Both the position numbers and the translations under genes were made by a program. Below, one piece after another: positions 10 to 18,489 of a DNA stretch of 18,489 nt. This DNA is from Halomonas chromatireducens (GTDB lineage Bacteria; Pseudomonadota; Gammaproteobacteria; Pseudomonadales; Halomonadaceae), in NCBI RefSeq assembly GCF_001545155.1, contig NZ_CP014226.1, forward strand, positions 3,567,327 to 3,585,815, written 5' to 3'. The notes beneath the pieces are model-generated. The model was given only the letters and a program-made list of their open reading frames with translations. It was not told where the DNA came from and did not search any database. Position 1 is the first letter of the stretch, and every line of letters starts with the position of its first letter.

Positions 10-1017
10 TCAGCTCCTGGCAATTACCAGTTGATGCAGCTCACGGGGCATTGAAAAAGTGATGGTTTCTTCGCGGCCTTCCAGTTCTTTTGGTGCGGCG
101 GCGCCGAGTGACTTCAAGCGTTCAATTACGTCTTTTACCAGCACCTCGGGCGCGCTGGCCCCGGCGGTGACACCCACGCGCTGCACGTTATCCAGCCAGC
201 TCGCATCGATCTGCTCGGCGCTGTCGATCAAGTACGCCGGTTTTCCCATGCTCTCTGATAGCTCACGCAGCCGATTGGAGTTGGAACTATTGGCACTACC
301 GACCACCAGCACCAAATCGCTCTCTGCGGCCAACTCACGCACCGCATCTTGGCGGTTCTGGGTGGCATAGCAAATATCATCCGTTCGCGGGCCGCTGATC
401 TCGGGGAATTTATTCCGCAAGACGTCAATAACCTTGGCGGTGTCGTCCATCGAGAGCGTAGTCTGGGTCACGAATGCCAGCCGGGTGGGATCCTTGACAT
501 CCAGATTGGCCGCGTCGTGTTCATTCTCGACTAGATAGATGCGGCCACCATGGGAGGTGTCGTAGCGCCCCATGGTGCCTTCCACTTCGGGGTGTCCTTC
601 GTGACCAATCAGAACACACTCCTGGCCGCGCTTGGCGTAGCGCAGCACTTCCATGTGAACCTTAGTGACCAATGGGCAGGTGGCGTCGAAGACTTTCAGC
701 CCGCGCCGTTCTGCATCTTGCTGCACAGCACGCGACACGCCATGGGCGGAGAAAATCACGATGACGTCATCCGGCACTTCGTCCAGCTCTTCGACGAACA
801 CCGCGCCACGCTCGCGCAGCGATTGGACCACAAAACGGTTGTGGACGACCTCATGGCGCACGTAAATTGGCGGGCCAAACACATCTAGCGCGCGATTGAC
901 GATATCGATTGCCCGGTTGACTCCTGCGCAAAAACCGCGCGGGTTGGCCAGTTTGATCTGCACAGGGGCTTCAGATGTCGTCTCCGGGAGCGTCTTGGAA
1001 GCTGTTTCAGAAGCCAT
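10..1017 (-). CDS. ispH: 4-hydroxy-3-methylbut-2-enyl diphosphate reductase (IspH/LytB)
   Basis: IspH is the last enzyme of the MEP isoprenoid pathway. It reduces HMBPP to IPP and DMAPP using a [4Fe-4S] cluster in the cytosol. The protein is 335 residues, the usual length. The three cluster cysteines are visible: Cys30 in [12 protein letters not shown], Cys114 in [11 protein letters not shown] and Cys216 in [11 protein letters not shown]. The signatures [17 protein letters not shown] and [13 protein letters not shown] are also present. I chose the ATG at 1017 because AAGGGGTG lies just upstream; an in-frame ATG 24 bases earlier has no such site. In many gammaproteobacteria ispH follows fkpB. 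Here only a possible fkpB remnant lies upstream, so ispH may use its own promoter. The product supplies isoprenoid units that the prenyl synthase at 1694 could draw on, but that gene is on the other strand and not co-transcribed. Confidence 0.97.
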
Positions 1018-1077
1018 GCTCACCCCTTGATGCCACTGCATCGCAAAAAAATGGAGAGTGCCGTTAATAATAAACAG

Positions 1078-1693: not shown

Positions 1694-2752
1694 ATGAGGC
1701 CTGCCTCGCTCGCCCTACAGAACCGGCTGCTGCCCGGTGTCTCCCGGACGTTTGCTCTGACCATTCCACAGTTACCGATGCCCCTGCGCCCGGCGATCAC
1801 CAATGCCTATCTCCTGTGTCGTATTGCCGACACGGTGGAAGATAGCACCGCCATGGCGCCCGACGAAAAAGACGCTCATTACCAGCGCCTGCTGGAAGGG
1901 CTGAGTGACCCCATCGCCGCTCGGAAGTTCTCCGAGGCGCTGCTCGATACCAGACTGGTACAAGACCCCCTGGAACGGGAACTCATCGTTCAGACACCCG
2001 GCGTGCTGCTCGCCTTCGGAGAATTGCCGGTCGATCAGCAGAGGGCATTGCGCGATTGCTTAACCACCATGTGCAACGGCATGGCGAATTTCGAACGTCT
2101 CAAGAACCCCTATGGGCTCGAAGACAGTGACAGCCTGCGCGATTACTGCTACGTGGCTGCTGGATGCGTTGGCGAAATGCTGACTCGCCTGTTCGCCGAC
2201 ATCAATCCGAAAATCCACGCCCAGCGCGAAGAGCTTCGGCGCCTGTCGTTGGCCTTCGGCCAGGGACTGCAGTTGACCAACATTCTGAAAGACGTCTGGG
2301 ATGATCGTCAGCGCAATATTTGCTGGCTCCCGCGTGACGTCTTCGAGGCGCGTGGCATTGACCTGAGGCGGACACATGACTGGCAGGATCATCCCGGCTA
2401 TCGCGACGGGATCCGCTTTCTGGTGGCCGTTGCGCATCATCATCTGCGCCAGGCGCAAGAGTACACGCTGCGCATTCCCGCCTCTGAGGTCGGCATTCGC
2501 CGCTTCTGCAGCTGGTCGATCGGCATGGCGCTCTCGACGCTGCGCAACATTGCCGACAACCCAGGTTTCACTGCCGGCGAGCAGGTCAAGATATCGCGGC
2601 GACGCCTGCGCATGATCGTGGCCACGAATAACCTCACGGTCGTCAACGATATGCTGCTGCGAGGTGTCTTTCGGCTGAGCTGCTACCGACTGCCCAGCGT
2701 TCAGGAACAGGAACTCGGCCGCCTGCAGGCGGGCCATGACGGAAATGCATGA
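1694..2752 (+). CDS. squalene/phytoene synthase family prenyltransferase
   Basis: A 352-residue class-I trans-prenyl synthase that would join two prenyl diphosphates head-to-head (family knowledge). Two aspartate-rich motifs for Mg-diphosphate binding are visible: DTVED at residues 46-50 and DVWDD at 200-204. Family segments are SRTFALTIPQLP near the N-terminus, YCYVAAGCVGEMLTRLF around 151-167, and FGQGLQLTNILKDVWDD. The YC-x-VAG-VG segment is closer to squalene synthases than to CrtB, so farnesyl-PP to squalene is the more likely reaction, but substrate cannot be settled from sequence. GGAG about 11 bases upstream of the ATG supports the start. The P450-CNB gene lies 90 bases downstream on the same strand with no clear terminator between, suggesting co-transcription. 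No cyclase or desaturase is present in the window, so the final product is unknown. Confidence 0.85.
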   Translation: MRPASLALQNRLLPGVSRTFALTIPQLPMPLRPAITNAYLLCRIADTVEDSTAMAPDEKDAHYQRLLEGLSDPIAARKFSEALLDTRLVQDPLERELIVQTPGVLLAFGELPVDQQRALRDCLTTMCNGMANFERLKNPYGLEDSDSLRDYCYVAAGCVGEMLTRLFADINPKIHAQREELRRLSLAFGQGLQLTNILKDVWDDRQRNICWLPRDVFEARGIDLRRTHDWQDHPGYRDGIRFLVAVAHHHLRQAQEYTLRIPASEVGIRRFCSWSIGMALSTLRNIADNPGFTAGEQVKISRRRLRMIVATNNLTVVNDMLLRGVFRLSCYRLPSVQEQELGRLQAGHDGNA

Positions 2753-2842: not shown

Positions 2843-5014
2843 ATGACTGATTCGAAGCCCACCGAGTCTACGCCCCCACCCAGCCTGCCTGGCTTACCCC
2901 TGCTCGGCAACACGATCGAGTTGCTGACCAAAGACGCCAATCGGTTTTTCAGTGAGGCCTACGAGAAGCTCGGCCCGGTGTTTCAGGTCAACTACCTGTT
3001 TCGCAATTACACCATCATGGCGGGGCCGGAATCGCTGAACCATCTGCTGGAATTCCGCGAACAGGGCATGAGCCGAGAGGCGTTTTTCGGTCCGGTGGAC
3101 AAACAGATCGGGGGGGTCGTGCTGCTGACGCAGCCCGTTGGGGCGTATCAGAATCTACGCAATCAGGCACGTCTCGCGTTTTCCCGTCAGCTGGCCGCAG
3201 AGTTTATTCCCGATCTCGTCGGCTGCGTGGATGAGGGCCTGGATCGGCATCCGCCGGGCAGCACCGTGTCGGTGATGGATCTATGCACACGCGTAAGCTT
3301 CGATCAATACAGCCGGTTACTGTGTGGTGAGAGCCTGGACGCCTACTTCGATACCGCCAACCGCTACGCGGTGTGGGTAATGAACATAGGCGTCAAGAAG
3401 GTGCCGGAGTTCAGCGTCCATCTGCCGGCCTACAAGAAGCTGCGCCGGGACGTCATGAAGATGGCGGATGAAGTACTCACGCGTTATGAAAATCGCCCGG
3501 CAGACCATGGCATGCCGTACACGATCCTGGATGCCCTCGTCAGCGCCACAGACGATGACGGAAACCCGTTGCCGCGCAAGGATCTGGTGGCAACGTTGCA
3601 GTACGGCATTATCGGTACCGTGGTGTATATGAACCGCACCGTCGCCTTCCTTCTGCACGACCTGCTATCGAACCCCGAACACTACGAACGCGTGCGCGAA
3701 GAAGTCGACGGCGCCTATGCCAACGGGCTGCCCGACAGCCTCGATCTGCGCGGCATGAGCACGCTGAATGCGGCGCTCAAGGAGTCGATGCGGCTACACC
3801 CGGTGTCGCTTGGCATGCCATTCATGGTCGATGAGCCCTTCGAGTTCAACGGCCACACGGTTCCCAAGGGGCAATTCTGCGTCTATAGCGGGGTCCCTAA
3901 CCACTTTAGTGCCGACTTTTATCCGGAACCACACCGATTCGATCCAGACCGGTGCCGCGCACCACGCAATGAACACAAACAGCGCCGGGCATACGCGCCT
4001 TACGGATATGGCAAACGCGTCTGCCCCGCAGGGGGGCTGGTGGAGACGTGTACCCTGGTTTCGATCAGCCGGATCATTCACCGACGCACCTTCGAGCGCG
4101 TACCGGCCAATGATCCGCTGCGCACCGTCCTCGCTCCGCTGCCAGCACCGGATCGCAAGTTCCGTATCCGTTTTAATGAAGAGCGCAGCAAGCATGCCGC
4201 GGGAAAGACGGATCACACGCAACTCGCCGTCAACGCACTCGATGAGCTTTTCGAGAGTGGCCGCCTGGCGAAGCCCGCCATGCGCGAGCGGCTGGACCAT
4301 GTGACCGCCCGCCGCCATGAGCCGGGTGATTACATCCTGCGCAAGGGAGAGCGGGCCGAGACATTCCATGTTCTGATTGAAGGCACCGTCGAGGTGACGT
4401 CGGGGTCGGATGAACATCTGGCCACCCTGGAGCCAGGCAGCTACTTTGGCGAAATCGGCCTGCTCGGAGAGGGTCGCAGAACCGCCAACTGTCTGTCGAC
4501 TACCCGCACACTGGTGCTGGAGATGACGCGGGAAGATTTCCTGGCCATCGTGCTAAAGGATGACCTGGTGCCCGGTGAAATCGCGGCTGCGCTGCGCCAG
4601 CGCTACCTGACCACCCGTATGCACAAAGCCCTGCCTGCACTCACCTCAGAGCAGCTGAGAACGCTGGCCGGGACCGGCTCGCTGAAACGCTTCGAGGCCG
4701 ACGACACCATCATTCGCCAGGGGGATGAGGCCGACTGGTTTTACATTCTTCTCACCGGGAAAGTTGCAGTACTGATCGAGGATGCAAATGGGACACAGCA
4801 AGTGGCGACGCTTGAAGCAGGCGACCACTTTGGTGAAATCGGCATTATCGAATCAAGAGCACGAACGGCAACGGTACAGGTTACGCCGGATGGCCCCGTA
4901 GAGACCCTCGCTATCCAGCGCGATGCCCTGTTGGAGCTCGTCGAACACGATCCGCAGGCTCGCAAGGATATTGCATCAGTCATCATGGACCGAATCCGCA
5001 CAGGGGCGCCGTAA
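2843..5014 (+). CDS. cytochrome P450 fused to two cyclic nucleotide-binding domains
   Basis: A 723-residue protein; ordinary P450s are about 400-500. Residues 1-460 are a P450 with a proline-rich entry (LPGLPLLGNTIEL), the K-helix E314-S-M-R317, and the heme-thiolate loop YGYGKRVCPAG with Cys394 as presumed iron ligand. The I-helix region (about 255-266, GIIGTVVYMNRT) lacks the usual acid-Thr oxygen-activation pair. Two CNB domains follow, at roughly 480-590 and 605-715. Their phosphate-binding cassettes are FGEIGLLGEGRRTA (from F535) and FGEIGIIESRARTA (from F663); both keep the Glu and Arg that contact cyclic nucleotide in CAP/PKA-type domains. No DNA-binding domain or membrane anchor is seen. 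ATG 2843 is preferred over an upstream TTG because AGGA lies 9 bases before it. The neighbouring prenyl synthase suggests a terpenoid substrate (inference). Confidence 0.9.
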   Translation: MTDSKPTESTPPPSLPGLPLLGNTIELLTKDANRFFSEAYEKLGPVFQVNYLFRNYTIMAGPESLNHLLEFREQGMSREAFFGPVDKQIGGVVLLTQPVGAYQNLRNQARLAFSRQLAAEFIPDLVGCVDEGLDRHPPGSTVSVMDLCTRVSFDQYSRLLCGESLDAYFDTANRYAVWVMNIGVKKVPEFSVHLPAYKKLRRDVMKMADEVLTRYENRPADHGMPYTILDALVSATDDDGNPLPRKDLVATLQYGIIGTVVYMNRTVAFLLHDLLSNPEHYERVREEVDGAYANGLPDSLDLRGMSTLNAALKESMRLHPVSLGMPFMVDEPFEFNGHTVPKGQFCVYSGVPNHFSADFYPEPHRFDPDRCRAPRNEHKQRRAYAPYGYGKRVCPAGGLVETCTLVSISRIIHRRTFERVPANDPLRTVLAPLPAPDRKFRIRFNEERSKHAAGKTDHTQLAVNALDELFESGRLAKPAMRERLDHVTARRHEPGDYILRKGERAETFHVLIEGTVEVTSGSDEHLATLEPGSYFGEIGLLGEGRRTANCLSTTRTLVLEMTREDFLAIVLKDDLVPGEIAAALRQRYLTTRMHKALPALTSEQLRTLAGTGSLKRFEADDTIIRQGDEADWFYILLTGKVAVLIEDANGTQQVATLEAGDHFGEIGIIESRARTATVQVTPDGPVETLAIQRDALLELVEHDPQARKDIASVIMDRIRTGAP

Positions 5015-5783: not shown

Positions 5784-5811
5784 GGGCGGTCTCCAGTTCC
5801 AAGCGCAACAC
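5784..5811. repeat. left terminal inverted repeat of IS30 copy A
   Basis: It starts GGGCGGTCTCCAG and ends GCAACAC, and pairs with 6855-6882. A 33-base relative of this end occurs at 9443-9475 in opposite orientation. Confidence 0.8.
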
Positions 5812-6829
5812 TATTGAAGGGTGCTCGGGCCGGCAACGGATTTCTTGAGCACCTCGGCATAAGCTTCCAACGGCGTTCGCCAGTCCAAAGTCTTACGAGG
5901 CCGGGTATTCAATGAGTCGGCGATAGCATCTAGTTCTGCCTGACTGTAGACAGAGAGGTCCGTCCCCTTCGGCAGGTACTGTCGCAACAGCCCGTTGGTG
6001 TTCTCATTCGATCCCCGCTGCCATGGGCTATGCGAGTTAGTGAAGTAGATGGCCGTACCGCTCTTCTGAGTGATTTCGGCGTGTTTCACCATCTCGCGGC
6101 CTTGGTCATAGGTAATGCTGAGCCGCAGTGCCCGCGGCAACTCGTTCAGCTTATCGCTGAACCCCACAGCCGCCGCTGTCGCCGTGGTGCCATCCAGTTT
6201 GGCCAGGATGACTAAGCGCGTGGTGCGTTCAACCAGCGTGCCGACGGCAGAACGGTTGTTGGCGCCCATGATCAGGTCACCCTCCCAGTGGCCCGGCATC
6301 AGGCGATCCTCGATCTCGGGCGGCCGCAGGTGAATGCTGATCAGATCCGGAATCTGGTTGCGTCGATCCTGGCCGCGACTGCGTGGCCGTCGTTTGCCCT
6401 TGCCTTGACGCAAGCAGGCTATCAGCTCCTTCTTAAGCGTCCCGCGCGGCATGAGGTAGATCGCGTTGTAGATGGTCTCATGCGAGACCTGTCGGCCAGT
6501 GTCGTGAGGAAACATGAGCTTCAGTGTGCTGGCGATTTGCTTCGGTGACCAGTACTGACGCAGCAGATGGGTCACTAGCTCGAACAGCTCACCCTCGGGA
6601 TGCAGTTTCGGGCGCTGACGTGGCCGATGGCGCGTCAATCGGTCTCGATGGCCTGCCAGGCCGGCATTGTAGCCCTTGACGGGATCAACCGTGTGGCGAG
6701 CGAGTTCGTGCGACACGGTACTCGATGCACGGCCCAGGTGTGGGCGATGTCGCGGATCGAGTGCGTGGCTCGCATGATCATGAGGGCGGCTCGCTCTTCT
6801 AAGTTGAGGTGGTGATAACAATGGGTCAT
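5811..6829 (-). pseudogene. IS30-family transposase, frameshifted
   Basis: The N-terminus (ATG at 6829, MTHCYHHLNLEERAALMIMRATHSIRDIA) carries the family's helix-turn-helix start. It lies in a different frame from the rest, which begins HLGRASSTVSHELARH and continues to the stop. The two parts join if one base is added at about 6740-6746 (the expected reading is DIARHLGRASSTVS). The catalytic DDE domain is otherwise complete, with GHWEGDLIMGANNRS, ITYDQGREM and SNENTNGLLRQYLPKGTDL. A conventional ORF call would start at 6884 with an unrelated leader in place of the first helix-turn-helix. IS30 transposases are normally made from one frame, so I read this as an inactivating 1-base deletion, not programmed frameshifting, although I cannot exclude the latter. 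Confidence 0.85.
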
Positions 6830-6854
6830 GGCAACACGATACCTGAGGGTTCAC

Positions 6855-6882
6855 GTGTTGCACTTGGTCATTGAGACCGCCC
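6855..6882. repeat. right terminal inverted repeat of IS30 copy A
   Basis: It reads GTGTTGCACTTGG inward and GAGACCGCCC at the outer edge. It lies on the transposase 5' side. Confidence 0.8.
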
Positions 6883-6885
6883 ATC

Positions 6886-6915
6886 TTGATTTACGATCCC
6901 ATTGTAGCCTATGAA
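6886..6915 (+). promoter_or_regulatory. candidate sigma-70 promoter for the nucleotidyltransferase/HIT pair
   Basis: TTGATT (6886-6891) and TATGAA (6910-6915) are separated by 18 bases. The site lies immediately outside the IS30 copy A end and upstream of the gene at 7005. A separate TATAAT at 6941-6946 is an alternative -10 without a good -35. Assignment is by eye only. Confidence 0.35.
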
Positions 6916-7004
6916 TGTGTCGGACTAGTGACTTGATTTTTATAATTTTAATACATGGCCGTGACTTGCAGCGAATTCGTGCAATCTAAAATAGAGAGGG
7001 AGTG

Positions 7005-7418
7005 ATGAAAGTAATAGGGTACACGACAGGCGTTTATGACCTTTTCCACATTGGCCACTTGAACCTTCTGAAGCGAGCCAAGCTTGAGTGTGACTACTTG
7101 ATTGTTGGTGTAACCACTGATGAGCTGTCTGAGTTTAGAAAGGGCAAGCGACCAATCATTCCCTTTACAGAGCGGATGGAAATCGTAGAGCACATAGAAT
7201 TTGTCGATGAAGTTGTTCCTCAAACAAACATGGACAAGTTTGAAGCCTGGAACAACTGGAAGTTTGACAAGATGTTTGTAGGCAATGATTGGCAGGGCAC
7301 TGAGAAGTGGAATGAGTTGGAGCGTCAGTTTGCTGAAGTCGGCGTAGAGATCGTCTATTTTCCATACACGACTCATACTTCCAGCACCAAGTTGAGGGAG
7401 ATACTGGAGAAGCTATGA
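7005..7418 (+). CDS. cytidylyltransferase family protein, glycerol-3-phosphate cytidylyltransferase (TagD)-like
   Basis: A 137-residue nucleotidyltransferase. In this family the enzyme joins CTP and a phosphorylated alcohol such as glycerol-3-phosphate, giving CDP-glycerol for polymer synthesis. The nucleotide-binding HxGH motif is H15-I-G-H18 within GVYDLFHIGHLNLLKRAK. RPIIPFTERMEIVEHIEFVDEVV and a C-terminal HTSSTKLRE (in place of the RTEGISTT of TagD) also fit. The length equals TagD. GAGAGGGA upstream selects the ATG at 7005 over a GTG three bases earlier. The gene is visibly AT-richer than the ispH, P450 or acyltransferase genes, indicating foreign origin. The stop overlaps the next gene's start by 4 bases (ATGA). 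The substrate is inferred; ethanolamine-phosphate or other sugar-phosphate substrates remain possible. Confidence 0.85.
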   Translation: MKVIGYTTGVYDLFHIGHLNLLKRAKLECDYLIVGVTTDELSEFRKGKRPIIPFTERMEIVEHIEFVDEVVPQTNMDKFEAWNNWKFDKMFVGNDWQGTEKWNELERQFAEVGVEIVYFPYTTHTSSTKLREILEKL

Positions 7419-7849
7419 CACAGGAAAACATGCTCACAGCATTCCGTGAAACGTTTCAGCTAGATGGGCTAACTATTCTTCAAAATGAACATTGGGTGCT
7501 GTCGGTCCGCCCTGAGCAGCTGACCTTGGGCTCAATGGTGTTGAGTTCTGCCAAGGGAAAAACTGAGCTGAGCCAACTGACAGCGGAAGAGGGAGCTGAA
7601 CTGGCCCAGATGCTGGGTAAAGCGGAAACGCTAGCAAAGAAAAAATTTGGTGCGATACGTATCAATGCAGTTTGCTTGATGATGAAAGACCCGATTGTTC
7701 ACTTTCACATATTTCCACGTTACGATAGAAATGTGGAAGTCGATGGGATCATATGGCGTGATGAAGACTATCCAAGCCCCCCTGTTATTAGGAAAATTGA
7801 TACTGATATAGAACTGCTTGATTATCTGATGAGCAAACTCAGGTTATAA
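7415..7849 (+). CDS. HIT-family nucleotide hydrolase/transferase
   Basis: A 144-residue histidine-triad protein. HIT proteins cleave or transfer nucleoside monophosphates through a covalent nucleotidyl-histidine. The signature is VHFHIFPRY: His96 and His98 align with the catalytic and following His of the HxHxHxxPR motif, but the first His is replaced by Ile94. The start overlaps the preceding stop (ATGA), with GGAG 6 bases upstream, so translation is coupled. Coupling to a CTP-using nucleotidyltransferase suggests it hydrolyses or recycles a CDP-linked intermediate (inference). A HIT/kinase of unrelated nucleotide metabolism is the alternative. No terminator is seen after it; IS debris follows. 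Confidence 0.85.
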   Translation: MTQENMLTAFRETFQLDGLTILQNEHWVLSVRPEQLTLGSMVLSSAKGKTELSQLTAEEGAELAQMLGKAETLAKKKFGAIRINAVCLMMKDPIVHFHIFPRYDRNVEVDGIIWRDEDYPSPPVIRKIDTDIELLDYLMSKLRL

Positions 7850-8038
7850 TGTTCAATGTATTTTTTCTTCCGACCTGACCTAGGGAACCGCTGATCAATT
7901 CGATGCCGAGCGCCTCTAGCGCTCAGCGCAGCAAATTTCGCGCTTCAGCGCTTGATTTTTGACCACCTCAAGTGGCCTATTTCCCTGGCCCTATCCGTCA
8001 ACGTAGTTGTCACCTAAACGGATTGAGAGGTGATCAAC
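7850..8038. other. short intergenic stretch resembling insertion-sequence debris
   Basis: It holds AGGGAACCGCTGATCAATTC at about 7881 and a TTCCCT about 90 bases later. Between them are short GAGCGC/GCGCTC palindromes. It also contains GTTGTCACCTAAACGG just before the truncated OrfA, which could be that element's terminus. Composition returns to GC-rich here. No gene is visible. Confidence 0.4.
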
Positions 8039-8269
8039 GTGCGTTACCCCGCAGAGCGTAAGGAAGCCATCCTCAAGAAGATGGCGCCGCCCATGAGCCT
8101 GACCATCCCGGAACTGGCCGAGCAGGAAGGCATTACAGCGACAACCCTCTACAATTGGCGGAAACAGGCCAGATCACGAGGACAGGTTTTGCCATCACGT
8201 TCGACCAAGCCCGACCAATGGACCAGCCAGGAGAAGTTCCAGATCGTCCTGCCTAGATTCATAGAATAA
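8039..8269 (+). pseudogene. truncated transposase OrfA (helix-turn-helix, IS3-type)
   Basis: The fragment begins VRYPAERKEAILKKM and carries a helix-turn-helix (LTIPELAEQEGITATTLYNWRKQAR), then WTSQEKFQIVL. This is the N-terminal part of a common OrfA-type transposase subunit. Homology stops at about 8251; the last codons (PRFIE) come from the inserted IS30 element. GTG 8039 is favoured, with GAGAGG 8 bases upstream; GTG 8030 is also open. No continuation was found on the far side of the IS30 element, so the rest has been deleted. It is non-functional as a transposase subunit. Confidence 0.7.
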
Positions 8270-9361
8270 CCGCAGCACTTTGGACCACCGGGTAGAAGCA
8301 GGGGGGCCAGCGCCGGTACTCTCACTGCCTTACCTACCAAAGTGAAGCAGAGCATGGGATACCGACAGCTGACCCAGACCCAAAGATACCAGATCTTCGC
8401 CCGCCACGACCTGGGCGTGAGCCAGCGGCAGACCGCCAAAGAGCTTGGCCTCCATAGCAGTACGGTCAGCCGCGAGCTGCGCCGCAATGTCATTGCCAGC
8501 GGCAAAGATCCCGAGCAGGCACAGTCCCGCGGCGACTACCGGCGACGCACCGCCTGGAAGTGGACGAAGCGCTTGCCCAGCATGATCACCGCCGTCGTCG
8601 ACCGGCTGCGTGAAGAGTGGAGCCCGGAGCAGATCAGCGGTTTCATGGCCCCCTTGGCCGGCTTAGGCGTCAGTCACCAGTGGGTCTACTCTTTGATCTG
8701 GGATGAAAAGGCGCAGGGTGGCGATCTCTGGCAGCATCTCCGTCAGCCCAAACGGCGCAGCAAGCACCGGGCCCAGGCCAAGAGCGCAGGACTCGGCAAG
8801 ATTCCCAACCGTGTGGGCATCGAGCATCGCCCGGCGGAGATCAATACCAGGCTCGTCATCGGGCACTGGGAGGGCGACACCGTGATCCGGGGGCACAAGC
8901 AATCAGGGCTGGTCACGCTGGTAGAGCGTCGCAGCGGCTACCTGCTGGCAGCACGGCTGCCTAGGATATCGGCGGAGCTGACGCAAGCGGCCATGATCCG
9001 CCTGCTGAAGCCTCGCCGGGGTGCTGTGCAGACCATCACCCTGGACAACGGCTCGGAGTTCGCCGGTCACGAAGCCGTGGCCAAGGCGCTGACTGCTGCG
9101 ACCTACTTTTGTGATCCCTACTGCTCCGGCCAGCGTGCGAGCAACGAGAACACCAATGGCCTGGTACGGCAGTACTTCCCCAAGGGAACGGACTTCCGGC
9201 AGGTCACCAACGCCGAGTTGCGCAAGGTGATCAGAAAGCTCAATGACCGCCCCCGAAAGCGCCTCGGCTACCGGACACCGGCACATGTGTTCTTGGGAGA
9301 ATACTCAAGAGCCCTGGATACCGCAGGTGCTGCGCGTATTGCTTGAATTCAGGGAATCAGG
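8252..9361 (+). mobile_element. IS30-family insertion sequence (copy B)
   Basis: The left edge is set where the OrfA homology stops, at CCTAGATTC (8252). The right edge is set at GAATCAGG (9354-9361), whose reverse complement CCTGATTC resembles the left end. The repeat is short and gapped, so the edges are tentative. The transposase is only distantly similar to copy A, so this is a different IS30 element. The right flank is not the remainder of OrfA, implying deletion or rearrangement after insertion. Confidence 0.55.
8354..9346 (+). CDS. IS30-family transposase, apparently intact
   Basis: A 330-residue DDE transposase. The N-terminal helix-turn-helix is MGYRQLTQTQRYQIFARHDLGVSQRQTAKELGLHSSTVSRELRRN. 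The catalytic core shows GHWEGDTVIRG, ITLDNGSEFAGH and SNENTNGLVRQYFPKGTDF, holding the D, D and E positions. No frameshift or stop is seen. An in-frame GTG at 8342 would add four residues; the ATG is chosen because MGYRQL fits the family start. It acts on its own IS ends and could have produced the local rearrangement. Confidence 0.9.
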   Translation: MGYRQLTQTQRYQIFARHDLGVSQRQTAKELGLHSSTVSRELRRNVIASGKDPEQAQSRGDYRRRTAWKWTKRLPSMITAVVDRLREEWSPEQISGFMAPLAGLGVSHQWVYSLIWDEKAQGGDLWQHLRQPKRRSKHRAQAKSAGLGKIPNRVGIEHRPAEINTRLVIGHWEGDTVIRGHKQSGLVTLVERRSGYLLAARLPRISAELTQAAMIRLLKPRRGAVQTITLDNGSEFAGHEAVAKALTAATYFCDPYCSGQRASNENTNGLVRQYFPKGTDFRQVTNAELRKVIRKLNDRPRKRLGYRTPAHVFLGEYSRALDTAGAARIA

Positions 9362-9442
9362 TTCTTGGCGGAACGCGCTGATTTCTCAAGAGAATACCAT
9401 CCGCTATCTTCGTTTTAAGGCCGCCCTCATGAATAAGCCGGG

Positions 9443-9475
9443 TTCAATAGTGTTGCACTTGGAACTTGAAACCGC
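9443..9475 (+). repeat. stray IS30 copy-A-type terminus upstream of the Stealth gene
   Basis: These 33 bases match the reverse complement of 5786-5818, the transposase-3' end of copy A, at 30 positions by eye. They begin TTCAATAGTGTTGC and end ACCGC. No transposase sequence precedes them. They are therefore a solo end left by a lost or deleted relative of copy A, or the end of a related element, lying 10 bases upstream of the Stealth reading frame. Confidence 0.7.
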
Positions 9476-9485
9476 TTTATCTCAA

Positions 9486-10487
9486 ATGGAGATTGTTTTG
9501 GATATTGACGCAGTTATCACTTGGGTAGATGGATCTGATCCCAAGCATAATCAGAAGCGCAACCATTGGCTGCTGAATGAAGCTGGTGAACTACATGATA
9601 ATGCCACTGATACCAATCGTTGGTTAAATAATAATGAAATTAGATACTGCTTGAAATCCATAGAGATACATGCACCTTGGTTTAGAAAAATATGGATTGT
9701 AACCGATGATCAAGTTCCAGAACTGTCATATCTGAGCAAAGAGGCACGAGATAAAATTAAGATTATTGACCATCGGCATATATTTCGAGGCTATGAGGAG
9801 TTTCTTCCGACTTTCAACTCTCTCTCAATAGAAACCATGCTTTGGAGAATTGAGGGGCTGTCTGATAATTTTGTATACTTTAATGATGATGTGTTTCTTG
9901 TAGGGCCAACAGGGCCAACCCGGTTTTTTCAGAATAATAAGCCAGTCTTGCGTGGTCAATGGGTGGATTTTACAGACATAGACGAGGAGAGGCTGCATAG
10001 AATAAATAAAATAAATTCGGCCACAATGCTAGGGTTCAATCAAAGCCATTTTTTTGCTTCAGCGCATGTGGCATTCCCATTAAAAAAACGTGTGCTGGAA
10101 GAGCTTTTTCTTAATTACGAAAAGGCTTTCGTAAAAAACATTAGTTATCGATTTCGAGATAAAAGACAGTTTCTGGCACAGGGGGTTCATGACTTGTTCT
10201 TGATAAAGTCAAACAATTGCTATTTTAGCAAGAAGAAAGACCATGTTCATATTAAAAAAGATAATGTGTTAACTTTAGGTAGGGCTAAAACCAAAAAAAG
10301 GATTGATAAAATTTTTAGTAATAAAGTTAGAATTGCTTGTATAAATGATTTCCATGCCATGGAGTCAGAGTTTGTAGGTTTTGCCAAGTGGATTGAGCGT
10401 GCTGTTGGTGAAAGAAAAGATTGCCTGTATTATCTAAAAAAAGCGCAAGTGCGCATAAGGAAAAAATACTTCAAAAGAATTAGTTGA
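9486..10487 (+). CDS. Stealth-family sugar-phosphate transferase
   Basis: A 333-residue protein of the Stealth family. These enzymes transfer hexose-1-phosphate to build phosphodiester-linked capsule or exopolysaccharide (family knowledge). Conserved blocks in order are IDAVITWVDGSDPKHNQKR at the N-terminus, RWLNNNEIRYCLKSI with APWFRKIWIVTDDQVP, FNSLSIETMLWRI, FVYFNDDVFLVGP, and GFNQSHFFASAHVAFPL. The gene is AT-rich with a lysine-rich C-terminus, unlike its GC-rich right neighbour. The start is uncertain. ATG 9486 has no ribosome-binding site; TTG 9498 follows GGAG by 6 bases and still keeps LDIDAVITWVDG. A longer frame from 9243 only reads through IS sequence. With the TagD-like gene on the far side of copy B it suggests a split polysaccharide phosphotransfer locus. 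Confidence 0.9.
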   Translation: MEIVLDIDAVITWVDGSDPKHNQKRNHWLLNEAGELHDNATDTNRWLNNNEIRYCLKSIEIHAPWFRKIWIVTDDQVPELSYLSKEARDKIKIIDHRHIFRGYEEFLPTFNSLSIETMLWRIEGLSDNFVYFNDDVFLVGPTGPTRFFQNNKPVLRGQWVDFTDIDEERLHRINKINSATMLGFNQSHFFASAHVAFPLKKRVLEELFLNYEKAFVKNISYRFRDKRQFLAQGVHDLFLIKSNNCYFSKKKDHVHIKKDNVLTLGRAKTKKRIDKIFSNKVRIACINDFHAMESEFVGFAKWIERAVGERKDCLYYLKKAQVRIRKKYFKRIS

Positions 10488-12754: not shown

Positions 12755-12778
12755 CAGCACTCCAGCACTCCAGCACTC
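12755..12778. repeat. three tandem copies of an 8-base unit
   Basis: CAGCACTC is repeated three times without interruption. The array abuts the stop codon of the minus-strand hydrolase (stop 12777-12779). Confidence 0.85.
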
Positions 12779-14819
12779 AAACAAGATCGCGCGGGATTTT
12801 CTCGTCCCAACTCTTGGAAAATACCCGGCTATCGCCCTCAAAGGCATCAAGTGTCGCTCGCAGACGAAAGCTTTGAGCGTCAGACGTCATTAATGTGCGA
12901 GTCACACTGCGTACTTCCCAGCCGCCGCGTCGGAAAGTACGCTCCCACTCGGTCCAGCCACTCACGCTGTCGTAATTGCCGTAGGCATAGGTATAGCGCT
13001 CGACGACCCGTGCCGAGAGTTCCAGCTCGATGTCATCGAGACGAAAGGTGCCTTGGTCATTGATGACTTCGAGTGTGGTCTGGTCATTGGCCAGGTCACG
13101 TATCACTCGCCACGCCTCCTGGCTCGGCTGTATCACGCTAACCGCCAGAGGCGGTGCTGCCTCCGGCGAGCTAAATGGGGGCAGTGCCGCTTCTTCCCGG
13201 GGCTGGGGCTCGCGGCATGGCAGAATCATCAGGCACCCGGCAGGGTGCACTGTCAGTCTGACAGGCACAGGAGACGGCCAGGCCAGCGGCCAGTAACTGG
13301 TCGAAAGCGAGAGGCGTATCGCGTTGCCCACGGGAAACTTCTGCGCGATGTGTTTAAGCGGGACGCGCACGCGATAACGCTTGCCCGGTTCCAAGGCCTG
13401 GGGAAACTCGTCACTGTCACGGTGGGTCAGGTTCAGCAGGCCATAGGAAATCCGGGTCGCCTTATCGTCATCGGCAATATCGCTGAGCCGTAGCGCCACC
13501 ATCGCCACCGGCTGATCGGCTTCGATCTCGAGCTCGACAATGGGTTGTCCGCAAATCTCGATGTCCTGTTCGAGCCGTGCCGTCTGGAAAATCAGCGAGC
13601 CGCCGTCCTCGTCGCGTTGATCGTGAGGCAGGTCCGGCGGAGCATTGTAGGAGCACCACTTGCCAGCATACAGCCCTACAGACAGCGGCGAACGAACGGA
13701 AAGAGGAGCATCGTCGCCCGATACGCAAGCCGAGGGATTCGGGGGGTCCGGCAGCAAATCATGACCACTGGTGAAACGGAAGTGCTTCGGTTCGATCCGC
13801 GGTGATGGCCAGCTCGGTTCGGCAACCCAGCGCCCCGGTCGTACCTCGTAGCGGGCCGACGGCGGAACCGATTCCTGCATCCATACGCGCAGCATCGGCT
13901 CGTCCATGATGCCCGTTTCTTTGCCCTTCAACCAATAGTCCCACCAGCGTAGTGATTCCTGCAAAAAACCGATGGCCGGGCCCGGAACACCATGATACGG
14001 ATACATGTGCGCCCAGGGGCCAACCAGGCCCTTGCGTGGCACATCGAGCCCCGCGAGCAACCGAAACACGGCGTTGCAATATCCGTCTGCCCAGCCGCTG
14101 ATGGCATAGACGGGGCAGCGAATGAGTGAGAAGTCCTCGCAAACCGAGCCATGCTTCCAGTAGTCGTCGCGACGCTGATGCTGCAGCCAGGTAGCCAGCC
14201 AGAGCCCACTATGCTCAAGGCGCTCCAGCCACATGTCCCGCCAACGCTCACCAACCAACAGCGGGTCGGGTGGGCAGGTATTGCCATCGAACATGGTCGA
14301 GGCCCATGACAGGTTATCGCCAAGCAGGCAGCCACCCATGTGGTGGACATCATCGGCGTAGCGATCGTCGGTCGAGCACAGTGTGATGACGGCCTTCAGC
14401 TCGGGCGGCTGCATTGCCGCAATTTGCAGGCCGTTGAACCCGCCCCAGGAGATGCCGATCATGCCGACATCACCGGTACACCAGGATTGCTGACCCAGCC
14501 AGTGCAGGATCTCGACGCCATCGTCCAGTTCCTGCTTCAGGTATTCGTCGGTCAGCACGCCGTCCGATTCGCCACTGCCACGTATGTCTACACGCACCCC
14601 GGCGTAGCCGTGGCCGGCCCAGTAAGCGTGCGTCTGTGCGTCACGCATCGCCGTCAGGTCTCGTTTGCGATAAGGCAGGTATTCGAGGATTGCCGGTACC
14701 GGATCACTCTCGGCATCCACCGGTCGCCAGATACGAATGGCCAGCCGACAGCCATCGGCCAGCGTGATCCAACCTTCCTCATCCTGCACGTCGCGGGGAA
14801 AATCGCTGACGATATGCAT
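12777..14819 (-). CDS. CocE/NonD-family (peptidase S15-like) serine hydrolase
   Basis: A 680-residue alpha/beta-hydrolase with the S15 layout: hydrolase domain, helical cap, and a C-terminal jelly-roll. The catalytic triad is visible as Ser124 in GISWGG, Asp245 in SGWADGYC and His271 in GPWAHMYP. The family includes cocaine esterase, glutaryl-7-ACA acylases and Xaa-Pro dipeptidyl-peptidases, so the substrate is an ester, amide or small peptide (family knowledge). No signal peptide is evident at the N-terminus (MHIVSDFPRDVQDEEGW), so it is probably cytosolic. GGGAG and AGGG lie upstream of the ATG. It follows the ATP-grasp gene by 59 bases on the same strand, so the two are likely one operon. 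Location beside cyanophycin genes suggests peptide or amide cleavage linked to that polymer, which is inference only. Confidence 0.88.
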   Translation of the reverse strand: MHIVSDFPRDVQDEEGWITLADGCRLAIRIWRPVDAESDPVPAILEYLPYRKRDLTAMRDAQTHAYWAGHGYAGVRVDIRGSGESDGVLTDEYLKQELDDGVEILHWLGQQSWCTGDVGMIGISWGGFNGLQIAAMQPPELKAVITLCSTDDRYADDVHHMGGCLLGDNLSWASTMFDGNTCPPDPLLVGERWRDMWLERLEHSGLWLATWLQHQRRDDYWKHGSVCEDFSLIRCPVYAISGWADGYCNAVFRLLAGLDVPRKGLVGPWAHMYPYHGVPGPAIGFLQESLRWWDYWLKGKETGIMDEPMLRVWMQESVPPSARYEVRPGRWVAEPSWPSPRIEPKHFRFTSGHDLLPDPPNPSACVSGDDAPLSVRSPLSVGLYAGKWCSYNAPPDLPHDQRDEDGGSLIFQTARLEQDIEICGQPIVELEIEADQPVAMVALRLSDIADDDKATRISYGLLNLTHRDSDEFPQALEPGKRYRVRVPLKHIAQKFPVGNAIRLSLSTSYWPLAWPSPVPVRLTVHPAGCLMILPCREPQPREEAALPPFSSPEAAPPLAVSVIQPSQEAWRVIRDLANDQTTLEVINDQGTFRLDDIELELSARVVERYTYAYGNYDSVSGWTEWERTFRRGGWEVRSVTRTLMTSDAQSFRLRATLDAFEGDSRVFSKSWDEKIPRDLV

Positions 14820-14878
14820 GACCCTGCTCCCATTTTCGTAATCGGGTTTCTTACATTCATTCCCACGACTAGAGCACG

Positions 14879-16180
14879 TCAGCCGACGATGTCCTCGAAC
14901 GCAAAATTAAGCTGCTCGGCAAGGCGTGCGTAGTTCTCTTCCAGTGCGAGATCGTCGTCTGCCCCCATCCACACGTAAGCCAGGGCGTAGCTGTAGCTGT
15001 CTTGCTCAGGTAGGGATGACAAGCGCATGCCGATCTCGACCTGTACCGTGATCATGGTGCCGGGAAAGGCTTGCTGCAGTGTCTCGATTTCCTCGGCACT
15101 CGGTACCCGGCTGACGGTGGCGTCGACGAAGAACACCCGATAGAAGAATTTCGCTGCAACCTTGAATGCCCCTTGACGGTAAGGCATGTCTGGCAACTGT
15201 CCCAGAGCCAGGTCCACCGTCACTTGCTGATGGCTGACCCCATCGACCTTTTCGAAAAGGTCGCAGTGTGATTGTGCAATACGGGTATTGATCTCCAGCA
15301 GCCAAATGCGATCTTGAACCTCATCCCAGAAGTATTCGACGTTGAAGGCCGCATTGTCGTATCCGATATGGGCCATCACTTGACGAGTCAGTTCCTGCAT
15401 CTTTGCCTGAATGTGAGAGGGTAGACGGGACGGGTAGCGATAATAGAAAAAACTCAGCACTTGCGGATAGCGAATCGAATCGACAATGGCATAAGGGGTA
15501 ACATCACCTTGGAAGACGTATCCCTCGACCGTACATTGCCACCCACCGATAATCTCTTCAGCCATGCAGTGGCCACCATCGACAGAGCGCACTTCGCCAG
15601 GCAAGCTGGCTTGCTCAAGCACATAATTGAAAGGCTCTGAAATCGTGCCAATGCCTTCACACAATTGCGATACGGCATGGGCGAAGTCCTCGGGACTATC
15701 AATGCGGAAGCCAAGTCGCGACCCTGAAGACTTGATGGGTTTCACGAAAAAGGGGAAATAAAGCCCAGCCTCTCCAATATGCTGCAATGCCTGGCTGTCG
15801 AAGGGATCAAAAACGGTAAAGCGCGGAATATAATCGGCAATCACCTCATGTTGAACGAGTCGACTCCAATACTTGTGCTCGCATTTTAGCAAACTCTCGA
15901 GACTGGTAGAGCGCGTACCAAATCGCTTGCAGAGCAGCGGCAGCATGGTCGAGACGGGGAAATCCATGTAGCCAACGATGGCATCAATAGGCTCACTGAA
16001 TTCTTTCAGTTGAGTTTCGGCCCTGTCCAGCATGTCTTCGATAGGAAAAACTTCTGTATCGTTGACCTCCATTGGGTCGATCACACCATGAAACCGATAA
16101 TTCTCAGCCCCACGTAAGTGATTGAGTCGTTTGCAATTATAATCATCCATCCCGACAACAAAAATATTCCGTTCGCTCAT
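14879..16180 (-). CDS. ATP-grasp domain protein (carboxylate-amine ligase type)
   Basis: A 433-residue ATP-grasp enzyme. These activate a carboxylate as acyl-phosphate and join it to an amine or thiol. The N-terminal pre-ATP-grasp domain begins MSERNIFVVGMDDYN. The nucleotide-binding lysine region is FVKPIKSSGSRLGF at about 145-158. A Mg-binding strand pair follows at FNVEYFW (about 279) and LLEINTR (295-300). ATG 16180 is chosen because AGGAGG lies six bases upstream; an ORF extension of 35 codons lacks a ribosome-binding site. It resembles proteins annotated as biotin-carboxylase-like, but no biotin-related domain is present, so that label would be misleading. It is divergently transcribed from cyanophycinase and precedes the S15-like hydrolase, suggesting a peptide or amide-forming step paired with a hydrolase. 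Confidence 0.85.
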   Translation of the reverse strand: MSERNIFVVGMDDYNCKRLNHLRGAENYRFHGVIDPMEVNDTEVFPIEDMLDRAETQLKEFSEPIDAIVGYMDFPVSTMLPLLCKRFGTRSTSLESLLKCEHKYWSRLVQHEVIADYIPRFTVFDPFDSQALQHIGEAGLYFPFFVKPIKSSGSRLGFRIDSPEDFAHAVSQLCEGIGTISEPFNYVLEQASLPGEVRSVDGGHCMAEEIIGGWQCTVEGYVFQGDVTPYAIVDSIRYPQVLSFFYYRYPSRLPSHIQAKMQELTRQVMAHIGYDNAAFNVEYFWDEVQDRIWLLEINTRIAQSHCDLFEKVDGVSHQQVTVDLALGQLPDMPYRQGAFKVAAKFFYRVFFVDATVSRVPSAEEIETLQQAFPGTMITVQVEIGMRLSSLPEQDSYSYALAYVWMGADDDLALEENYARLAEQLNFAFEDIVG

Positions 16181-16533
16181 GATCGCCTCCTGGCGCAAGC
16201 TCGGCTGTCGTAGTCCTCGCAGCCGCGGTGCAACGGGTAGCAGGCAGGGTATGGCCATTGCCGTCCTGACCCACGGGACTGGCATGGGGGAAGGCCGCTT
16301 ATCAAAGCATAGCGGTTAATTGTTGCTGCGCTGGGGCAATACGCGATAGAGCAGAAATTTCACTACTCCACAGCTGGGGTCTAGTCCTACCGGGGAATCG
16401 CTATAAACATGGCTAAGGCGGTTTTCGGCTGTTATAAGTGAAGAGACGGGTTAAAGCATCACGCGATACGCCATTACCAGCACCGGTAATGATTCAGCGT
16501 ACCTCAAGAGCGTCGCTGGGCGGCGAATGGGAT
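16181..16533. other. divergent intergenic region between ATP-grasp and cyanophycinase genes
   Basis: It must carry promoters for both directions. TATAAA at 16402-16407 is a candidate -10 for the plus strand, without a convincing -35. The cyanophycinase frame is open from GTG 16438 and ATG 16489, but those codons lack ribosome-binding sites and family similarity, so I treat them as leader. No RNA gene or terminator was recognised. Confidence 0.4.
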
Positions 16534-17397
16534 ATGGCTTCACACTACCCCACCATTTCCGGCCACATCGTGGCCATTGGCGGTGCCGAGGACAAGACTT
16601 CCGAACTCGCCATCCTGCGACGAGTTTTCGAGCTTGCCCCCAAAGACAATGCCGAAGTCGCCATCATCGCCACGGCCAGCAGCATTCCTGAACAGCTCCT
16701 GCCCTGCTATGAAGCGGCTTTTACTCGCCTGGGCGCAAGCCAGGTCCATGCGCTGGAAATCCAGGATCGCCAACAAGCCGCCGACCCCGAGACTGTCCGA
16801 CTTATTCAACGAAGTGGCGTGATTTTCTTGACCGGGGGCGATCAGCTTCGCCTGACCAATATTTTTGGCGGCACCGCCACCCTGCGGGCGATTCGCGAAA
16901 GCCTTAGGGCCGGCGCCGTAGTAGCAGGGACAAGTGCAGGCGCTGCAGCCATGCCAAGCACCATGATCTACAACGGTGCGGCAGCAGACGCCTTGCGCAA
17001 AGGGGCGGTCAACATGAGCTTCGGGCTGGGCATCGTTCGCGGGATGGTCATCGACAGCCACTTTCTCGAGCGGGGTCGATTCACGCGTCTCATGGAAGTG
17101 GGTGCCAGCAACCCGGAGCAGTTGGGCGTCGGCATTGGCGAGAATGCAGCGGTCATTGTTCATCCGAACCGCATTCTGGAAGCCATCGGGCCGGGGCACG
17201 TCATCATCATCGACAGCCGGGATCTGGCGAGCTCCAATATTGCGGAATTGGCGATGGGCGAGCCGGTTGCCGTCGAGCACATGATCCTGCACGCCATGGT
17301 CAGTGGCCATGGATACGATATCGATTCACGACGCTATCTCGTCGCTGAGGAACTCAGCGCCATCCTGGCAGGGAGCCATGGGAATGAACATACTTGA
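16534..17397 (+). CDS. cphB: cyanophycinase
   Basis: A 287-residue serine exopeptidase of the S51 type. It cuts beta-Asp-Arg dipeptides from cyanophycin, the Asp/Arg storage polymer. The nucleophile Ser134 lies in AGTSAGAAAM, matching the GTSAGA elbow of characterised cyanophycinases. HIVAIGGAEDKTS, IFLTGGDQLRL and GLGIVRGMVIDSHFLERGRFTRL are further family blocks. No export signal is seen, so it acts in the cytosol. The start is chosen by homology: known proteins begin only a few residues before GGAEDK. GTG 16438 and ATG 16489 would add 32 and 15 residues. The 3' end overlaps the synthetase start by 14 bases, so synthesis and degradation enzymes are translationally coupled. Confidence 0.93.
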   Translation: MASHYPTISGHIVAIGGAEDKTSELAILRRVFELAPKDNAEVAIIATASSIPEQLLPCYEAAFTRLGASQVHALEIQDRQQAADPETVRLIQRSGVIFLTGGDQLRLTNIFGGTATLRAIRESLRAGAVVAGTSAGAAAMPSTMIYNGAAADALRKGAVNMSFGLGIVRGMVIDSHFLERGRFTRLMEVGASNPEQLGVGIGENAAVIVHPNRILEAIGPGHVIIIDSRDLASSNIAELAMGEPVAVEHMILHAMVSGHGYDIDSRRYLVAEELSAILAGSHGNEHT

Positions 17398-18489
17398 ACA
17401 TCGGGCGCTGCGCGGTCCGAATTACTACAGCCGCTATCCGGCTATCTTCCTGCGCCTGGACATCGGTGAACTCGAGGAGCGGCCAAGCGATACCGTTCCC
17501 GGCATCACAGAACGCATCACCGAACTCCTGCCGACCCTGTACGAGCACCGGTGCTCGGTCGGACGTGCCGGCGGGTTTCTGGAACGACTCGTCCGGGGCA
17601 CCTGGGCCGGCCACGTCGTAGAGCATGTCGCAATTGAACTGCAGAACCTGATCGGCTTTTCGGTGGGCTACGGCAAGACGGTCGATTCCTACGAAACCGG
17701 CATCTATAACGTCGTCTATCGCTACCGGGACGAGGCCTGCGGCCTGGCGGCCGGGGTGGAAGCCATTGATATCGTCACACGGCTCTTCAATGGCGACGAG
17801 ATCGATATCCCCACGGTGGTATCCCGCCTCAAGCAGGTGCGAGACGCGCATATGCTGGGGCCATCTTCGGCATCGATCGTGGATGCCGCCAAGCGCCGAG
17901 GGATTCCCTGGGCTCGCCTTGACCAGAGCAGCAGCTATGTCCAATTGGGACACGGCTGCCGTCAGCAACGAATCCAGGCAACGGTGACTTGCCGCACAAG
18001 CCTGATAAGCCACGGCATCGCCGATGACAAGCACTGGACCAAGCAAGTGCTCGGCGAGGCCGGGATTCCCGTGCCGCATGGGCACATTTGCCATTCGATC
18101 GATGAGGCGCTCGAGGCCGCTCTCGATCTCGGCTATCCCGTTGTCGTAAAGCCGCTGATCGGCAATCACGGCCGCGGTGTCAGCACGGACATCACCAACG
18201 AAGCGGCACTGCGGGAAGCGTTCACCATTGCCTCCCGCCACAATTCGACGGTCATGGTCGAGAACTTCATCAAAGGAGAGGATCACAGGCTACTAGTGAT
18301 CGACGGCAAGCTCGCCGCCGCCGCCAGGCGTCGCCCGGCCCATGTGATCGGCGATGGTCAGACGACACTGCAGGCGCTGATAGACAGGGAGAACCGGGAC
18401 CCGCGTCGCGGTATCGGCCATGAAAACCTGCTGACACAGATTCAGCTGGACGAACATTCCCATCGGCTGATAGCACAGCAGAATCTTAG
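17384..18489 (+). CDS. cphA: cyanophycin synthetase, 5' part (runs off window)
   Basis: The first 368 codons are present with no stop before the edge; full-length CphA is about 870-900 residues. CphA polymerises Asp and Arg into cyanophycin with ATP, using an ATP-grasp domain for Asp addition and a Mur-ligase-like domain for Arg. MNILEHRALRGPNYYS is the standard CphA start. The N-terminal domain is followed at about residue 185 by YVQLGHGCRQQRIQATVT, a CphA hallmark. ATP-grasp segments follow: IADDKHWTKQVLGEAGIPVP, YPVVVKPLIGNHGRGVS and VMVENFIKGEDHRLLVI. The Mur-ligase part lies outside. ATG 17384 is preferred over ATG 17378 because GGGAG is 8 bases upstream of it and only 2 from the other. 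It overlaps cyanophycinase. Confidence 0.96.
   Translation, partial: MNILEHRALRGPNYYSRYPAIFLRLDIGELEERPSDTVPGITERITELLPTLYEHRCSVGRAGGFLERLVRGTWAGHVVEHVAIELQNLIGFSVGYGKTVDSYETGIYNVVYRYRDEACGLAAGVEAIDIVTRLFNGDEIDIPTVVSRLKQVRDAHMLGPSSASIVDAAKRRGIPWARLDQSSSYVQLGHGCRQQRIQATVTCRTSLISHGIADDKHWTKQVLGEAGIPVPHGHICHSIDEALEAALDLGYPVVVKPLIGNHGRGVSTDITNEAALREAFTIASRHNSTVMVENFIKGEDHRLLVIDGKLAAAARRRPAHVIGDGQTTLQALIDRENRDPRRGIGHENLLTQIQLDEHSHRLIAQQNL

Follow-up and report, generated by a model that had tools for sequence, protein, structure and literature searches.

A cytochrome P450 carrying two C-terminal cyclic-nucleotide-binding domains, encoded beside a predicted squalene synthase gene in Halomonas chromatireducens

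What is the function of a cytochrome P450 that shares its polypeptide chain with a pair of cyclic-nucleotide-binding (CNB) domains? The question is raised by a gene of the salt-loving bacterium Halomonas chromatireducens, which was analysed within an 18,489 nt stretch of DNA (the window; positions 3567327–3585815 of the single-contig, 3.97 Mb genome). We know of no P450 whose activity is set directly by a second messenger that binds to its own polypeptide. The features of the window that bear on the question are the following.

2843..5014, + strand: P450-CNB-CNB fusion gene, 723 aa (translation, Pfam, homologues, alignment)
2876..4117, + strand: P450 domain, residues 12–425
3575..3667, + strand: I helix, residues 245–275 (AF2 model and CYP51 alignment), with Tyr262 (3626–3628, Tyr in 34/34) in place of the classical P450 Thr
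3782..3793, + strand: ExxR, residues 314–317
4022..4024, + strand: heme-ligand Cys394
4301..4558, + strand: CNB domain 1, about residues 487–572 (edges approximate), cassette 535–548 at 4445–4486
4685..4948, + strand: CNB domain 2, residues 615–702, cassette 663–676 at 4829–4870
1694..2752, + strand: predicted squalene synthase (SQS_PSY), Asp-rich motifs at residues 46–50 and 200–204
10..1041, − strand: IspH (MEP pathway), a second copy in this genome
5184..5555, + strand: single-domain response regulator

The fusion gene runs uninterrupted from an ATG at nt 2843 to a stop at nt 5014 (a program-made ORF list begins it one codon earlier, at a TTG), and an AGGA stretch lies 9 bases 5' of the ATG. 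A promoter and terminator scan gave no signal exceeding that of shuffled sequences. Pfam searches with the translated protein returned p450 (135.1 bits, cut-off 22.8) over residues 12–425, and cNMP_binding (135.2 bits) across two stretches, the better of which is residues 615–702. Frame and domain matches agree with an earlier note on this DNA, which had described a single ORF joining a P450 to two CNB domains. The AF2 model of the protein has a pLDDT of 84.6. That two separate genes were joined by an error of assembly or annotation is so improbable that it can be set aside, as the same fusion occurs in four genome assemblies and 34 proteins, and nothing was found in favour of such an error.

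Protein searches detected 33 further proteins of P450-CNB-CNB type (25, P0002–P0026, and 8, P0060–P0067). P0026 was kept in the family although truncated within CNB2, and the fragments P0027 and P0028 were excluded. The named isolates H. salipaludis, H. salicampi and B. montanilacus encode the protein at 91–96% identity, and the source names of other homologues include Fodinicurvata, a Halofilum MAG and a Myxococcota MAG. Genome searches, limited to scoring a small number of candidates in each genome, found the fusion in 4 of 250 Halomonadaceae genomes; across the class, full-length matches were present in 2 of 369 (the window's genome and G362) and partial ones in 17 more, and across the phylum the fusion was seen in 1 of 398 (the window's own), a second match spanning the P450 alone. 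In a quick tree of 68 P450 domains (34 from the fusions and 34 others chosen by hand) all of the fusions lie on one side of a branch with an SH-aLRT value of 99. The P450-CNB-CNB proteins are a real family, and a rare one among the genomes sampled.

The heme-binding features of this family are complete. Cys394, Glu314, Arg317 and Arg370 are invariant in the 34-row alignment of the fusion proteins, the heme Cys and the ExxR lying where the earlier note had placed them, and these motifs, with a PF00067 score above the cut-off, assign the protein to the cytochrome P450 superfamily. The I helix is unusual. Position 262 is Tyr in all 34 proteins and position 261 is acidic in none, so the acid-alcohol pair of classical O2-activating monooxygenases is missing throughout. 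Alignment with CYP51 places Val261-Tyr262 on the His-Thr of that sterol demethylase, which is therefore not retained either. In the CYP152 peroxygenases the acid-alcohol pair is replaced by Arg-Pro; none of the 34 proteins carries Arg at 261 or Pro at 262. A Tyr at 262 that is not preceded by an acid makes classical monooxygenation doubtful, and from these residues the heme chemistry is probably not of the classical O2-activating kind; given the absence of the pair from every member, it may be of a peroxide or rearrangement type. The closely related stand-alone P450s P0068, L013, L014 and L034 retain Asp-Thr in the I helix. Tyr occurs at the Thr site in the GPP34-P450 fusions P0029 and P0030 and, by manual reading, in L015 (778–2820), which has an N-terminal extension that Pfam does not assign, so that the CNB fusions are not alone in having it (wrong-frame rows of this comparison, such as L013_3120 and L015_493, were not counted). 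In fold the P450 most resembles CYP51, CYP184A1 and CYP120A1; the VIA-align list used for this covered the P450 part only. No redox-partner domain was detected in the fusion protein, nor in any of the 13 further proteins of the window that were scanned. The genome encodes a second P450 (L002, 391–2826, − strand), which ends in a 2Fe-2S domain and is perhaps self-sufficient for that reason.

Both CNB domains carry a phosphate-binding cassette with the Glu and Arg typical of the domain. In CNB1, F535, G536, E537, G539 and R546 are retained in 34/34 proteins, and in CNB2, F663, G664, E665, G667 and R674 in 33/33 (P0026 stops before CNB2), so that the FGExG...R-T-A signature reported earlier for both domains is borne out by the alignment. 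Of 28 other CNB proteins from the same homologue search, examined as a control, 25 have a similar cassette; being this common, it marks a CNB domain of the cNMP type and implies no special role. Modelled alone by AF2, the CNB pair has a pLDDT of 89.2, and the 50 matches listed in a fold search were tandem-CNB structures of the PKA and PKG types (one of them, 9fqr, bears the name of its complex as title and is elsewhere named PKA RI-alpha). Superposition of the whole pair on PKA or PKG was poor (rmsd 13–18, TM about 0.4). A Crp-Fnr transcription factor was rejected, as no DNA-binding Pfam domain was found at E≤0.001 and the CRP equivalog model scored 79.8 bits against a cut-off of 266. A Family 2B encapsulin was likewise rejected (62.1 bits against a cut-off of 400, the best stretch, 602–713, being CNB2), and Pfam shows no capsid domain; the match of NF041163 (encapsulin, cNMP-binding) in the CNB region is below the cut-off. 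By itself the cassette does not discriminate between cAMP and cGMP, and Clr, a CRP homologue, is reported to be activated by both (PMC10127613).

In all four Halomonadaceae loci the predicted squalene synthase gene is directly upstream of the P450 gene, at a distance of 90 bp. Its product matches SQS_PSY (185.8 bits) and has both Asp-rich motifs of that domain; it is the sole SQS_PSY match in the window's genome. The squalene synthase model TIGR01559 was the best of six models listed, at 106.9 bits with a cut-off of 286.75, and the name is given here as a prediction. No squalene-hopene-type cyclase (PF13243) was matched in this genome. For the G362 orthologue of the fusion protein (46% identity), the 12 kb covered around its gene, with only about 1 kb on the upstream side, contain no match to SQS; a PEMT/ICMT-family methyltransferase gene (L012, 1011–1463, − strand) lies 25 bp after the fusion gene. 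The IspH gene adjoins the SQS-P450 pair in three of the four loci. Its product is 91.6% identical to the operon IspH of H. salicampi and 79% identical to the other copy in its own genome, which weakens the idea of a purpose-built second copy and makes hitchhiking as likely as selection for IspH. The response regulator also adjoins the P450 gene in three of four loci; in L003 and L005 an exonuclease and a histidine kinase gene come after it, and the stretch of about 1.5 kb covered beside the cyclase (see below) in the fusion-free loci examined contains no match to it. It was rejected as a partner of the P450 on these grounds and probably represents recipient-genome context, its membership of the system being doubtful.

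The fusion genomes also encode a candidate source of cyclic nucleotide. A CHASE2 class III cyclase, most likely of the cAMP type to judge from its Lys/Thr pair, was matched in 4/4 fusion genomes and in 28 of 246 others (32/250 in total; E≤1e-100, identities 41–100%, query from a fusion genome). The co-occurrence has a hypergeometric probability of 2.3e-4, calculated without kinship correction for four fusion genomes that are not independent, and treating both 250-genome searches as the same set, with which the genome handles listed are consistent. The presence of the cyclase in 28 fusion-free genomes means that it has other roles too. Its distance from the P450 gene is 2.9 kb in H. salipaludis, where CHASE2 and cyclase domains were confirmed by Pfam, 4.0 kb in B. 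montanilacus, 16.4 kb on the same contig in H. salicampi, and 1.47 Mb in the window's genome. A cyclase tree was built from 22 of the 34 matches (an earlier 19-row tree had dropped five rows by a motif filter; the present one includes those and omits L072 and L073). The three cyclases of fusion-bearing genomes of groups g1 and g283 form a tight branch (100/100) that groups with six of the ten g3 rows (96/92), and the four fusion-free g1/g283 cyclases form a separate branch (100/100). The cyclase of G495, a fusion-bearing g3 genome, sits with that of the fusion-free G554, so the cyclases of the four fusion genomes do not form a single clade.

The H. salicampi (g3) locus reads FecR, cyclase, TrpS, pilins, operon IspH, fkpB, lspA, ileS, ribF, murJ, a GST-like gene, SQS and P450, most names being read from sequence starts. 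The cyclase, IspH and SQS-P450 pair look to have been partly co-transferred, and the simplest account would be that a g3-type segment was transferred and lost its intervening genes, the cyclase, IspH, SQS and P450 being kept. In B. montanilacus a gene for a protein with Popeye (POPDC) and CNB domains (L005, 4171–4818, − strand) sits between those for the CHASE2 cyclase and IspH. Of the 250 family genomes, 18 have a match to this protein, and in 15 of these the match is within 10 kb of the cyclase. The gene is whole in B. montanilacus, but the genome of the window has it in two pieces (2.10 and 2.61 Mb), a split that fits a later rearrangement separating cyclase and P450. Elsewhere in the window, the region 5811–10487 has low-GC parts (0.37–0.46), a cytidylyltransferase gene, a Stealth-type gene and two IS30-like transposases (manual reading of rve/HTH matches), and looks recently acquired. 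The region 12777–18487 encodes a cyanophycinase, a protein whose N-terminus resembles cyanophycin synthase (its gene is truncated where the window ends), an ATP-grasp protein and a CocE/NonD hydrolase.

The reading that we favour is of a P450 with a CYP51/CYP120-like fold whose C-terminal tandem of cyclic-nucleotide receptor domains would bind, at one or both sites, a cyclic nucleotide, most likely cAMP made by the CHASE2 cyclase of the same genomes. The bound nucleotide would alter P450 activity or access to a partner, and the level of the second messenger would thereby be coupled to modification of a squalene-type isoprenoid supplied by the neighbouring synthase. Such a P450, gated by a second messenger, unusual in its catalysis and with a substrate of this type, is put at a little short of an even chance. 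The more specific proposal, in which cAMP or cGMP on the same chain switches the P450 directly, the chemistry on the squalene-type isoprenoid is non-classical, and the system has passed from genus to genus together with a cyclase of its own, is offered more tentatively. Direct gating draws some support from the invariant cassettes and from the cyclase in 4/4 genomes, at less than 17 kb in three of them; the remote cyclase of the window's genome, the lack of SQS near the G362 gene within the span covered and the poor superposition of the CNB pair all count against the favoured reading. The gated oxygenase of the earlier note is retained in part: the fusion, motifs and cassettes stand, and the term oxygenase is weakened by the missing acid-alcohol pair. 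The links to the squalene synthase and the cyclase go beyond that note.

The same observations can be read in other ways. CNB domains can serve as docking parts, and the pair, whether nucleotide-bound or not, might provide oligomerisation, localisation or partner docking, with P450 catalysis not directly affected. Encapsulin systems with a cNMP-binding domain do exist (PMC8346489), and the sub-threshold NF041163 match would accord with this, but invariant cassettes in both domains and a co-occurring cyclase exceed what a pure scaffold needs, and we regard the proposal as rather unlikely. A conventional O2-dependent monooxygenase, gated or not, in which Tyr262 or another residue takes over the function of the Thr, is unlikely: loss of the I-helix Thr is tolerated by some oxygenases and the closest folds are those of CYP51, CYP184A1 and CYP120A1, but an acid at 261 is lacking as well, and the stand-alone relatives keep Asp-Thr, although the GPP34-P450 fusions share the Tyr. 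Loss of the pair, and the lack of a redox-partner domain in the proteins scanned, would also suit a heme-based sensor or ligand trap that performs no turnover, the CNB pair acting as effector or the reverse. Full conservation of the heme ligand, ExxR and Arg370, the pairing with SQS, which suggests an enzyme, and the lack of an output domain in the protein make such a sensor improbable. If gating of the P450 by a cyclic nucleotide is real, the family would offer a ready-made allosteric P450 and would connect the isoprenoid chemistry of bacteria with cyclic nucleotides, in proteins whose I-helix oxygen-activating pair is replaced by a fixed Tyr.

Among the titles retrieved from a literature that was only partly searchable, none describes a P450-CNB fusion, so novelty in print is not established. 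The P450 part has about 20% identity to CYP184A1, CYP120A1 and the CYP51 of Methylococcus capsulatus. The latter is a CYP51-ferredoxin fusion, with a ferredoxin at the C-terminus where the present protein has a CNB pair, and differs also in its I helix (His-Thr rather than Val-Tyr). CNB domains beside terpenoid biosynthesis are seen in other systems: geosmin clusters have CNB proteins next to terpenoid genes (PMC4558948), and encapsulin systems combine cNMP domains and terpene cyclases (PMC8346489). Unlike these systems, the fusion protein has its CNB pair on the enzyme itself. The GPP34-P450 fusions occupy a near branch of the P450 tree; they have an N-terminal GPP34 domain and no CNB (P0029 by Pfam scan, P0030 by its listed domains). 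The tandem CNB modules of PKA-R and PKG are the top matches in both fold and sequence, and likewise consist of consecutive CNB domains, two in number, whose cassettes are similar. In those proteins the module is joined to a kinase or its inhibitor segment and its domains are oriented differently, whereas here the CNB pair is attached to a P450.
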